Shown in pieces: positions 34,141-38,675 of a stretch of DNA of 38,675 nucleotides. The DNA lies in contig VGUA01000018.1 of NCBI GenBank assembly GCA_016874535.1, positions 1 through 38,675 of the forward strand. The letters run 5' to 3'. The position numbers and the translations under genes are program-made. The notes under the pieces are model-generated. The model was given only the letters and a program-made list of their open reading frames with translations. It did no database searches and had not been told where the DNA came from. Every line of letters begins with the position of its first letter. Position 1 is the stretch's first letter. This DNA comes from Gammaproteobacteria bacterium. Lineage in GTDB: Bacteria; Pseudomonadota; Gammaproteobacteria; Ga0077536.

Positions 34141-35124
34141 GTGCTGACACCCAATCGCACAGTGCTGCTGCTGACCGCGGCATTGCTCGCCCCCACCAGC
34201 TTCGCAGCGGGCCCCGAGGACGCTCTCGACCCGAGCCTTTCAGGTTACGCCAAGGTCAGTGGCGTGACGGGTAACCTCTCCAGCATCGGCTCCGATACGC
34301 TCGCCAACCTCATGACCCTGTGGGCCGAGGACTTCAAGAAGCTCTATCCCAATGTGAATGTGCAGATTCAGGCCGCGGGTTCGAGCACCGCGCCCCCGGC
34401 ACTCACCGAGGGCACGGCCAACTTGGGCCCCATGAGTCGCACCATGAAAGGTGAAGAAATCGGCGCTTTCGAAACGAAGCACGGCTACAAGCCGACGGCC
34501 ATCCCCGTGGCGGTGGATGCGCTTGCCGTATTCGTGCACAAGGACAACCCCCTCCAGGGGCTTTCCATTCCGGAGGTGGATGCCATTTTCTCGGCGACCC
34601 GGCTTTGTGGTCATGCGAAGGACCCGAAGACCTGGGGTGATCTCGGCCTGACGGGCGAACTGGCCGGACAGAACATCCAGCTCTTCGGCCGCAATTCTGT
34701 TTCCGGAACCTATGGGTTCTTCAAGGAAGTGGCGCTCTGCAAGGGCGATTTCAAGCACAGTGTGAACGAGCAGCCGGGTTCGGCCTCGGTGGTGCAGGGC
34801 ATCACCAAATCCGTGAACGGCATCGGCTACTCTGGCGAGGGCTACAAGACGTCCGGAGTGCGCATCGTGCCCCTGTCCCGCAAGCCGGGCGGGGAGCTGG
34901 TGGACGCCACCCCGGCCAACGCTCTCTCCGGCAAATACCCGCTGGCCCGCTTTCTGTATGTCTATGTGAACAAGGAGCCGGGCAAGCCGCTGCCGCCACT
35001 GGAGCGCGAATTCATGAAGATGGTGCTCTCCAAGGTGGGCCAGCTCACCGTGGTCAAGGATGGCTACATCCCCCTTCCGGCCAGCGTGGCCAAGAAGTTC
35101 CTTGCCTCGGAACTCGCCGACTGA
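34141..35124 (+). CDS. pstS: Phosphate ABC transporter substrate-binding protein PstS
   Basis: This 327-residue periplasmic phosphate-binding protein has a signal peptide ([18 protein letters not shown], then GPE). Phosphate-contact blocks are [13 protein letters not shown], the [12 protein letters not shown] loop, [11 protein letters not shown] and [13 protein letters not shown]. It starts at GTG 34141 with AAGGAG seven bases upstream. It captures Pi for the PstCAB importer and also feeds the PhoR signal. Two cysteines (in RLCGHAK and ALCKGDF) could form a disulfide. A three-half-site Pho box lies upstream and a strong hairpin lies between its stop and pstC. Confidence 0.94.
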
Positions 35125-35170: not shown

Positions 35171-35265
35171 TCATAATGCGCCCGCACACTCGAGCCTCTG
35201 CCCCTGACCTGCAGAACCGGGAGCAGTCCCGGTGCTTCACCTGTTCACAGCAAGACGGATAGCCC

Positions 35266-37521
35266 GTGACTGAGCCGACCCTTTCGGATCTCGCCCAATC
35301 TGAAGCCCGCCTGCGCAACTTCCGCATGCTGAAGGACCGCCTGTTCGGCCTCGTGATGGGCGTCGGCGGCATTGTCGTGATCGGCGCAATTCTCGCCATT
35401 TTCGTGTACCTGCTGGCGGTGGTGATTCCCCTTTTCCGGTCTGCAGAGGTCACCCCCGCCGCCGCGCTGCGCTTCGAGCAAACCATCGCTGGCACCCGGC
35501 TCGCGCTCAACGAATACGCCGACATCGCCTTCACCATGGGGGCGGACGGCTCTTACGCCTTCCATGACGTGGCGGACGGACAGGTCCGTCTGAGCGGTAC
35601 CCTGGTGCCGCCAGGACGCCAGTTGCAGGCCAAGAATGACAGCACGCGCAGTGCGCGCACCCTGGCCCTCGCGCTGGACGACGGAACTGCCGTCATCGCC
35701 CGCCCCGCCTATGTGGAGAGTTTCGAGAATCAGCAAAGGACGTCGAAGCCAACCCTGGCCTGGCCCCTGGGGGAAGCCCCGGTCGCAGTGGTCCCAGCCG
35801 GCAGTGAAGTCACGCGGATCGCGGCCGAGGCAGGGGATGACGGCGCGACCATCGCCGCCCTCACGAGCGACGGTACGCTCCACCTCACGAGTTACGCGCG
35901 CGCCATGTCTCTGCTGCAGCTGGATGGCGCCTTTGAATCCACCCAGGTCGTGGTGGGCAAGCTCCCGGAGGGCGTTGCCTGGCTCGCCATCGATGCGGAT
36001 CAGCAGGAACTCTACGCCGTTTCGCGCACCGGGCTCGTGCATTACTTCGATATCCGCGACAAGGCCGAGCCCCGCCTCGTGCAGGAATTACAGGTGCTGC
36101 AACCCGGCGGAGAAGTGACTGCGGTGGAGTTCCTGGCCGGTGGCGTGTCGCTGCTGATTGGTGACAGCAGCGGCCGGATCGCGCAGTGGTTTCCGGTGCG
36201 GGACGAGCAGAACAATTACCGCCTGACACGGGTGCGCAGCTTCGAGGGCTTTGCCGCGCCGATCGCGCTTCTCATCCCCGAACATTTTCGCAAGGGCTTT
36301 CTGGCCGTGGATGCGCAGGGCACGCTCGGCATCTTCCACGCCACGGCGGAACGCACCCTGCTGCTGGAGGAAGGGCTGCTTGCCCGCCAGCCGGTGCTCG
36401 GCGCCGTCTCGCCGCACGCCGATTCCCTCATACTCATGGGCGCACAAGGCGAAGTGGAGACTTTCGAGGTATACAACAAGCACCCGGAGGTGTCGCTCAA
36501 ATCCCTGTGGGGCAAGGTGTGGTACGAGGGACGTGATGCGCCGGAATACATCTGGCAATCCTCCTCCGCCTCAAATGATTACGAGCCGAAGTTCAGCCTC
36601 ACTCCCTTGACTTTCGGCACGCTCAAGGCAGCCGTCTACGCCATGCTCTTCGCGATCCCCGTGGCGATTTTTGGCGCGGTCTACACCGCGTATTTCATGC
36701 AGCCCCGCCTGCGCATGCTGGTCAAGCCCTCAATCGAGATCATGGCCGCGCTGCCGACCGTGATCCTCGGTTTCCTGGCCGGGCTCTGGCTCGCACCGCT
36801 GATCGAAAGCCATCTCATCGGCGTACTGCTCGCCACGACACTCATGCCGCTGGCCATCCTGCTGGCGGCGTATGTGTGGACGCATCTACCGGAAGCAGCA
36901 CGCCACCGGGTACCCGATGGCTGGGAAGCCATCATCATCGTGCCGGTGGTTTGCGGTGTGCTCTGGGCCACGATGGCACTCAGCCAACCGGTGGAACAGC
37001 TCTTTTTCGGCGGCAACCTGCCGCGCTGGCTGGCCCAGGAATGGGGCATCACTTATGACCAGCGCAACTCGCTGGTGGTGGGCATTGCGATGGGTTTTGC
37101 GGTGATTCCCAACATCTTCTCAATCAGCGAAGACGCCGTGTTCGGCGTGCCCCGCCAGCTGACGACGGGCTCACTTGCGCTGGGCGCCACGCCCTGGCAG
37201 ACCGTGACGCGCGTGGTGCTGCTCACTGCAAGTCCGGGCATTTTTTCGGCCGTCATGATTGGCCTGGGCCGCGCAGTAGGCGAAACGATGATCGTGCTGA
37301 TGTCCACCGGCAACACGCCCATCATGGACCTCAACATCTTCCAAGGCTTCCGCGCGCTGTCCGCCAACATCGCGGTGGAGATGCCGGAGTCGGAAGTGAA
37401 CAGCTCGCACTACCGCATCCTCTTCCTCGCTGCGCTGGTGCTGTTCGGCGTGACTTTCCTGTTCAACACCATTGCCGAAATCGTGCGCAGCCGCCTGCGC
37501 GCCAAGTACGGAAACCTCTGA
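35266..37521 (+). CDS. pstC: Phosphate ABC permease PstC, long form with beta-propeller insert
   Basis: This 751-residue permease is more than twice the length of E. coli PstC (319). Membrane segment 1 is at residues 28-57, a large periplasmic region at about 60-440, and the permease core (six segments, MetI-like) starts near 445. The core includes MAALPTVILGFLAGLWLAP and the EAA-loop-like stretch VPRQLTTGSLALGATPWQTV. The insert contains about seven WD/propeller-like repeats (near residues 79-108, 127-150, 181-212, 236-265, 282-312, 330-362 and 376-405), for example VTAVEFLAGGVSLLIGDSSG. Long PstC proteins are known in Pseudomonas and relatives. The start is GTG with a weak ribosome binding site. 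TGA overlaps the pstA ATG (TGATG). Confidence 0.9.
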   Translation: MTEPTLSDLAQSEARLRNFRMLKDRLFGLVMGVGGIVVIGAILAIFVYLLAVVIPLFRSAEVTPAAALRFEQTIAGTRLALNEYADIAFTMGADGSYAFHDVADGQVRLSGTLVPPGRQLQAKNDSTRSARTLALALDDGTAVIARPAYVESFENQQRTSKPTLAWPLGEAPVAVVPAGSEVTRIAAEAGDDGATIAALTSDGTLHLTSYARAMSLLQLDGAFESTQVVVGKLPEGVAWLAIDADQQELYAVSRTGLVHYFDIRDKAEPRLVQELQVLQPGGEVTAVEFLAGGVSLLIGDSSGRIAQWFPVRDEQNNYRLTRVRSFEGFAAPIALLIPEHFRKGFLAVDAQGTLGIFHATAERTLLLEEGLLARQPVLGAVSPHADSLILMGAQGEVETFEVYNKHPEVSLKSLWGKVWYEGRDAPEYIWQSSSASNDYEPKFSLTPLTFGTLKAAVYAMLFAIPVAIFGAVYTAYFMQPRLRMLVKPSIEIMAALPTVILGFLAGLWLAPLIESHLIGVLLATTLMPLAILLAAYVWTHLPEAARHRVPDGWEAIIIVPVVCGVLWATMALSQPVEQLFFGGNLPRWLAQEWGITYDQRNSLVVGIAMGFAVIPNIFSISEDAVFGVPRQLTTGSLALGATPWQTVTRVVLLTASPGIFSAVMIGLGRAVGETMIVLMSTGNTPIMDLNIFQGFRALSANIAVEMPESEVNSSHYRILFLAALVLFGVTFLFNTIAEIVRSRLRAKYGNL

Positions 37522-38675
37522 TGAAGCAGAACTTCCAGCAGTGGGTGGCAAGCGGCAACCCGTGGATCTGGCTCACGGCGGGTGCGGTGAGCCTGAGTCT
37601 GGTGATGGTGTTCGGCCTGCTGGTGTTGATTGCCGCCAATGGACTAGAACATTTCTGGCCCAAACAGGTGGCAGCGCTCACGGTGCAGGCGGGTGACGCG
37701 GAGCCCGAAGTCTTGCTCGCCGAGATCGTGGATGAAGAAACTGTCTCCGCCACGCGTGTGCGGGAGGCAGGAGGCACCGTCCCCGAGGGCATGGTGGCGG
37801 TGCGCCGGCTGCTGGTGAAGGTGGGCAACCGTGACGTGGGCGGCAGTGACTTCCGCTGGATCCCTGAAACCGAGATCCGGCAAGTGGAATATCCCTCGAG
37901 CGCGCTGGTTGCCGAGCGCACGGAGTGGGGCAATTTTTACGGCTACCTCGTGGCGGTGCGCGAGGGTGAAGAAACCCTGACCGCCGAAGATCCCTGGCAG
38001 GAAATCCCCGCCCGCCTCGCCCGGGTGGAAGAGATGCGTTCTGAACTGCGCCAGCTCGAGCGGGTGGAGATGGGACACATCAACGCCGCGCTGGAGGCAC
38101 TGCGCCTGCGGGAACGCAGTCTGCGGGCGCAAGGCAATGAGGCGGCCGCCGCGGCGCTCGCACCTGAACGTGGCGAACTTGATGCGCAGTTCAAGGTACT
38201 CAGCGCGCGCATCGCCGAGCTGCACGCAAGCTTTGATCGCGACAGTCTGCTGGTGCGCACCGCAGCTGGTGAGGAGCGGGTGCTGCCCTTCGGCAAGGTG
38301 GTGCGAATCTTCCAGCCCAACGACATGCACTGGGGCGAAAAAGCCTGGCACTACGCCATGAAAGTGGGCGAATTCGTGGGTGACGAGCCGCGCGAGGCCA
38401 ACACCGAGGGTGGTGTGTTCCCGGCCATCTTCGGCACGGTGCTGATGGTGATGGTGATGTCCGTCATCGCCACGCCCTTCGGCGTGGTGGCTGCAGTCTA
38501 CCTGCGTGAATATGCCAAGCCCGGTCCGGTCACCAGTGCCATCCGCATCGCGGTGAACAATTTGGCTGGCGTGCCTTCCATCGTGTACGGCGTGTTCGGC
38601 TTCGGCTTCTTCGTGTACTTCCTCGGCGGCAACATCGATCGCGCCTTCTTTGCAGAAAGACTCCCGGCACCGACT
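37521..38675 (+). CDS. pstA: Phosphate ABC permease PstA, long form, 3' partial
   Basis: The ATG at 37521 shares a base with the pstC stop, and the frame stays open to the window end (385 codons). Residues 15-39 are membrane segment 1. Residues 45-290 form a periplasmic insert whose part 163-238 is a likely coiled coil (ARLARVEEMRSELRQLERVE and the following heptads). The permease core begins near 298 with GGVFPAIFGTVLMV, then ATPFGVVAAVYLREYAKPG and the AVNNLAGVPSIVYGVFGFG motif typical of PstA. E. coli PstA is 296 residues and lacks the insert. The remaining membrane segments, and probably pstB and phoU, lie to the right. Confidence 0.92.
   Translation, partial: MKQNFQQWVASGNPWIWLTAGAVSLSLVMVFGLLVLIAANGLEHFWPKQVAALTVQAGDAEPEVLLAEIVDEETVSATRVREAGGTVPEGMVAVRRLLVKVGNRDVGGSDFRWIPETEIRQVEYPSSALVAERTEWGNFYGYLVAVREGEETLTAEDPWQEIPARLARVEEMRSELRQLERVEMGHINAALEALRLRERSLRAQGNEAAAAALAPERGELDAQFKVLSARIAELHASFDRDSLLVRTAAGEERVLPFGKVVRIFQPNDMHWGEKAWHYAMKVGEFVGDEPREANTEGGVFPAIFGTVLMVMVMSVIATPFGVVAAVYLREYAKPGPVTSAIRIAVNNLAGVPSIVYGVFGFGFFVYFLGGNIDRAFFAERLPAPT

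Follow-up and report, generated by a model that had tools for sequence, protein, structure and literature searches.

The window analysed here is an entire contig (C18; 38,675 bases) that ends within pstA, and the pst genes on it, with the features described below, lie on its forward strand. pstS (34141–35124) encodes a periplasmic phosphate-binding protein of the TIGR02136 type (NCBIfam, 256.6 bits against a cut-off of 206.6) and is followed, after a gap of 141 nt, by a long form of pstC (35266–37521), which opens with a GTG start codon and encodes 751 aa. pstA (37521–38675) overlaps pstC by one base and is truncated by the contig end; its 5′ part encodes a periplasmic domain of its own between TM1 and TM2, as judged from the predicted fold of a homologue (L001). 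A second contig of the same genome, C32, begins with a permease piece that fits the remainder of pstA, continues with pstB and phoU, and carries phoR and phoB further along. The arrangement is thus that of a pstSCAB operon, with pstS 5′ of pstC, pstA 3′ of it, and pstB and phoU behind the matching permease end on C32. PstC matches TIGR02138 (E 2.4e-57) but narrowly misses its curated cut-off (194.2 against 196.45 bits, in two stretches), so that its identity rests on homology and operon position, not on that cut-off. Across Pfam and NCBIfam, the permease part alone, including BPD_transp_1 at residues 468–745, scored above cut-off or with a strong E-value. Long reverse-strand reading frames antisense to the genes (for example 35245–36042) were taken for artefacts that arise from base composition and codon usage.

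What lies between TM1 and TM2 of this long PstC? An earlier note, written from the sequence alone, had counted about seven repeats there and proposed a closed periplasmic propeller at residues 60–440. We modelled PstC with AF2 on an alignment of 53 homologues (A1; mean pLDDT 78.8), and residues 61–403 are predicted to be a closed seven-bladed WD40-like propeller with 3+1 closure; by ten-residue blocks, the pLDDT of this insert is mostly 81–92, with five blocks at 66–76. The TM1 helix (residues 8–57; 35287–35436) has its N-terminus inside. Because the basic residues R17, R20, K23 and R25 precede its hydrophobic part, we place the insert that follows in the periplasm.

The insert comprises 28 strands, which, read in order, give seven four-stranded blades; the assignment of blades and faces follows the order of the modelled strands and not their coordinates. 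Blade 1 spans residues 76–112 (35491–35601), blade 2 residues 120–165 (35623–35760), blade 3 residues 182–232 (35809–35961) and blade 4 residues 237–276 (35974–36093). They are followed by blade 5 (284–326; 36115–36243), the most conserved one, which carries a QWFPVRD motif, and by blade 6 (333–368; 36262–36369), whose conserved residues E339, R342, K343 and T360 lie on the face from which both ends of the propeller emerge. Blade 7 closes the ring in velcro fashion, its strands a–c (376–403; 36391–36474) being completed by the first strand of the insert (61–69; 35446–35472). The range of the earlier note therefore holds as the propeller region up to residue 403; residues 404–443 (36475–36594) are a separate conserved neck, which leads into the permease core from TM2 onward (444–751; 36595–37518), as delimited by Pfam, NCBIfam and AF2.

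Fold prediction, structure comparison and profile search all back a closed seven-bladed periplasmic propeller. When the propeller profile was aligned to itself, off-diagonal repeats appeared at E 1.3e-10 and 6.4e-8, and the repeats are thus above chance. The two motifs that had first drawn attention to them are present (GRIAQWF at residues 303–309 and GLVHYFDIRD at 256–265), and a glycine occupies the equivalent place in all seven b–c turns (ADG 95, DDG 140, SDG 203, RTG 256, SSG 303, AQG 352 and AQG 395). These turns read as xxG followed by a strand, and the GH and WD dipeptides canonical for WD40 repeats look irregular by eye. The 344 residues of the insert include 30 glycines; they include no cysteine, in keeping with a periplasmic location. 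The top Foldseek matches of the model are WD40 rings (E 8e-14), and in VIA residues 58–414 align to WD40 rings (best Z 24.6, rmsd 3.7, 292 aligned), closed rings being matched over residues 60–404. Likewise, a profile of 27 propeller sequences matches WD40 proteins of the PDB (LST8, E 1.9e-7; TLE1, 6.1e-5). Up to 11 of these 27 members match a single propeller Pfam model at E < 0.01; the window's own member matches none, and its insert gives weak Pfam and NCBIfam propeller matches (Lactonase, E 0.07–0.19; WD40_Prp19, 0.06–0.35). A domain profile search of the genome at E up to 0.1 returned no second copy of the propeller.

Conservation is unevenly spread over the protein. Jensen-Shannon means over the 53 rows of A1 are 0.49 for TM1, 0.43 for the propeller, 0.72 for the neck and 0.66 for the permease. 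Within the propeller, the loop means differ between the two faces, with 0.494 on the side from which both termini emerge and 0.387 on the other (label shuffle over 27 loops, p 0.014), and the model suggests that the termini face is the membrane-proximal one. The best conserved propeller residues include R158, Q307, W308, R312, R324, E339, R342, K343 and T360, and ten propeller residues are invariant across the 27 sequences, 26 of which are 23–52% identical to the window's. The neck is predicted with low confidence in the lone chain (pLDDT below 50 at 416–442), which would fit folding against a partner.

Long PstC was found in 25 of 25 searched genomes of the window's family (its own included), and five of 15 other genomes of the class in the same search gave a match into the propeller, one of them from residue 191 only. 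A wider draw from the class yielded matches of at least 920 bits in 113 of 369 genomes, again with the window's own, two of which start late, at model positions 167 and 182. In a draw from the phylum, 55 of 398 genomes, own included, reached the insert with at least 570 bits; all belong to the same class, and one match is a half-size form. Eighty of 152 relatives were kept from a contig scan, and 79 of them have matches that start no later than residue 45 and end at residue 748 or 751; the exception, L019, starts at residue 133. Pseudomonas citronellolis (L062) has a long PstC, as does P. putida KT2440. Two metagenome bins that carry other-class labels, L059 (Desulfobulbus) and L028 (Epsilonproteobacteria), may be mislabelled. 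In family f32, ten of 59 genomes have the permease type in reading frames of just 355–376 aa; on a quick, unrooted permease tree with long branches, these systems may either have lost the propeller or never have had it. The PstC proteins of three f17 loci (L127, L130 and L131; 716–749 aa) have a full-size insert that matches the propeller profile weakly (E 1.6e-4, probability 51%) and may be either a diverged propeller or another domain.

Family f24 contains the propeller in graded states of reduction. The 45 loci compared, which were picked from a search of 81 f24 genomes and from the phylum search and give counts, not frequencies, comprise (i) 12 full propellers, (ii) nine divergent full-size inserts, (iii) 11 half-size inserts of 213–238 residues, (iv) five neck-only forms of 36–45 residues and (v) eight with nothing, in which 5–8 residues remain. 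In each of the 11 half-size proteins, the match to the propeller profile begins only at position 193–211 and continues to the profile's end; by sequence, these proteins appear to retain the propeller from roughly late in blade 4 onward, with blade 7 and the run into the neck. The LW...W neck is kept in all five neck-only proteins. When the permease part was placed in a quick tree of 119 rows, the divergent, half-size, neck-only and empty forms clustered in a single group (33 rows; support 94, unstarred), and starred branches of the tree require at least two changes for the neck-only state. Thus, the permease type occurs naturally in a propeller-free form, and what is kept longest is also what is most conserved. 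Three f24 genomes hold a full and a half-size system together (G776, G809 and G820, with loci L143 and L152, L144 and L155, and L145 and L154), and one f24 permease (L139) has exactly the sequence found in Marinospirillum perlucidum (L052).

The partner permease also carries a periplasmic domain. A model of PstA with L001 as first row (50 sequences, mean pLDDT 76.5) predicts that its periplasmic part, residues 46–290 between TM1 and TM2, consists of beta elements and a hairpin of two helices (158–203 and 214–238). In L001 (7256–8911), the beta-domain motifs KxGNRD (100–105) and ERxEWGNxYG (132–141) are strongly conserved, and both are recognisable in the propeller-less systems L120, L122 and L123. 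In 110 loci with a propeller score above 300 bits and a measurable PstA, a set that includes near-duplicates such as L012 and L183, the periplasmic part is 233–252 residues long. Strict co-loss of the propeller and the PstA hairpin, suggested by L120, L122 and L123, was contradicted by wider f24 sampling: a PstA periplasmic part shorter than 160 residues was found with none of 12 full, two of nine divergent, two of 11 half-size, none of five neck-only and six of eight propeller-less forms. Joint loss is thus a tendency, not a rule. Four loci (L148, L156, L159 and L163) have a PstA part of 134–149 residues, too short for the hairpin, together with a half- or full-size PstC insert. A coevolution analysis of propeller against PstA residues, with 126 sequence pairs (effective number 103 at 80% identity), was set aside; its positive control, intra-propeller pairs on predicted strand ladders, was too weak for interpretation (none of the top 20, three of the top 50 and seven of the top 100, over a background of 0.9%). 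The pairs of the PstA hairpin showed an antiparallel trend.

What could be the role of the propeller? The earlier note had named PstS, PstA or a sensor such as PhoR as docking partners, and PstS and PstA are possible ones. Tentatively, and with somewhat less than even confidence, we propose by analogy that the propeller acts as a MalF-P2-like accessory that positions PstS on PstC/PstA. Because both propeller ends exit the same face, we infer that this face, above all blades 5–7, and the neck would lie on the periplasmic side of the PstC/PstA dimer. Termini face and neck would form one wall of a docking place for PstS, with the neck and blades 5–7 as its fixed end, and the beta domain and helical hairpin of PstA would form the opposite wall. 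Held in this way, the propeller would catch, orient or retain PstS and so tune phosphate delivery, a role much like that of the unrelated MalF P2 towards MalE. Pho signalling, if affected, would be reached by way of the transport cycle and the intracellular PstB and PhoU rather than via periplasmic contact with PhoR.

Eighty loci combine a propeller score of 100 or more with 1.5 kb or more of upstream sequence, and 55 of them have a PstS-like gene within 1.5 kb upstream (single-sequence search); the 25 loci with no upstream match may reflect divergence or another gene order. Such a gene was found at four of six propeller-less loci with enough upstream sequence, at none of three f17 loci and at the one half-size locus examined. 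Thus, a related PstS occurs with propeller-less PstC. In favour of docking, the last blades and the neck are the parts that remain in the reduced f24 forms; against it, the PstA hairpin and the propeller are not strictly coupled, and a structural brace would account for the conserved face equally well. A bolder version, which we consider rather unlikely, is that the PstC propeller and the PstA coiled hairpin are the two arms of a periplasmic cage that keeps PstS on the transporter, representing an undescribed class of ABC importer; the stepwise stripping of blades within family f24, from seven to three or four, then to the neck and finally to nothing, would then be a natural deletion series.

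The strongest rival of docking is a structural brace: propeller and neck would fasten PstC onto PstA and serve the stability or assembly of the dimer, with no contact to PstS. Such a brace would explain why the neck and the termini face are the most conserved parts, why the neck outlives the propeller in the five neck-only proteins, and why PstA carries a periplasmic domain in the corresponding position. However, the eight fetched f24 systems with neither propeller nor neck and the short f32 permeases argue that a brace is dispensable, and the joint loss with the PstA hairpin is incomplete. We place this explanation on the unlikely side.

Could the propeller instead work as a sensor in the periplasm, with PhoR or a different envelope sensor as its receiver? 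Contig C32 of this genome carries pstB, phoU, phoR and phoB, and a published account (PMC5775613) states that Pst signals phosphate sufficiency. Yet the genome's own PhoR (L223, 12442–13761; 402 bits to TIGR02966) starts with two adjacent hydrophobic segments near residues 10–45, followed by the cytoplasmic part; read by eye, its sequence has no room for a periplasmic domain between the two segments. E. coli PhoR likewise has no periplasmic sensory domain, according to the same account (PMC5775613). Direct contact between propeller and PhoR is therefore unlikely, and PhoR is a poor candidate for a docking partner. Moreover, the opposite face of the propeller, which would be free for a partner, is the less conserved one, and we regard a sensor of either kind as improbable.

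Several basic residues rank among the best conserved ones of the propeller, and R158, R312, R324, R342 and K343 could in principle mark a domain that binds or converts another phosphorus compound, or a funnel for anions. Propellers often bind ligands at the face away from the termini. The loops on that face are the more variable ones here, no enzyme family of Pfam or NCBIfam scored above cut-off on the insert, and the Lactonase propeller model stayed below it; we give this explanation little credence. Repeated reduction within a single family (f24) would suit a lineage decoration that is kept by inertia and has no strong function, but this is hard to believe of a domain that is present in every searched genome of the window's family and holds ten invariant residues in such divergent sequences.

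Pst is the main high-affinity phosphate importer and also the input of the Pho regulon. Its best studied form, that of E. coli, has no propeller, and a large share of the sampled class has this second architecture; the graded f24 forms are ready-made variants for asking how a permease recruits its binding protein and whether phosphate signalling can be uncoupled from transport. In agreement with the earlier note, which knew of no assigned role, none of the papers listed by a literature search outside most subscription journals treats the PstC domain; the fold itself may already appear in public structure databases.

How does this PstC compare with known systems? The PstC of PDB 9k3s and 9k3x (chain B), which we take to be that of E. 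coli, has a homologous permease core, matched by residues 603–745 of the window's PstC at E about 3e-16, but at 319 residues it has no room for propeller or neck. The insert is predicted to fold like the seven-bladed WD40 propellers of AIP1, Ski8, Ciao1, WDR5, LST8 and the bacterial PkwA (5yzv). The WD40 matches listed, at about 8–16% identity to the insert, are mostly eukaryotic scaffold or complex subunits and include no transporter permease, and the window's PstC stays below the cut-off of every Pfam propeller model. Within the same operon, the periplasmic domain of PstA is also inserted between TM1 and TM2, but it is not a propeller, and its hairpin is lost alone in some systems. The closest functional parallel may be MalF P2 of MalFGK2, which has a non-propeller fold and lies in another permease loop than the PstC insert. 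MalF is absent among the Foldseek and VIA matches listed, which are filled by WD40 propellers. Like P2, the PstC insert (residues 58–443) is an extra periplasmic domain in the permease subunit of a type I importer, as its position behind TM1 and the basic N-terminus indicate, and both domains occur beside a binding protein. Studies cited in two papers (PMC3150292, PMC8134467) describe the P2 loop as interacting with MalE throughout the cycle and communicating substrate availability to MalK. Contact with the binding protein is thus reported for MalF P2, and for the PstC propeller we propose it by analogy.
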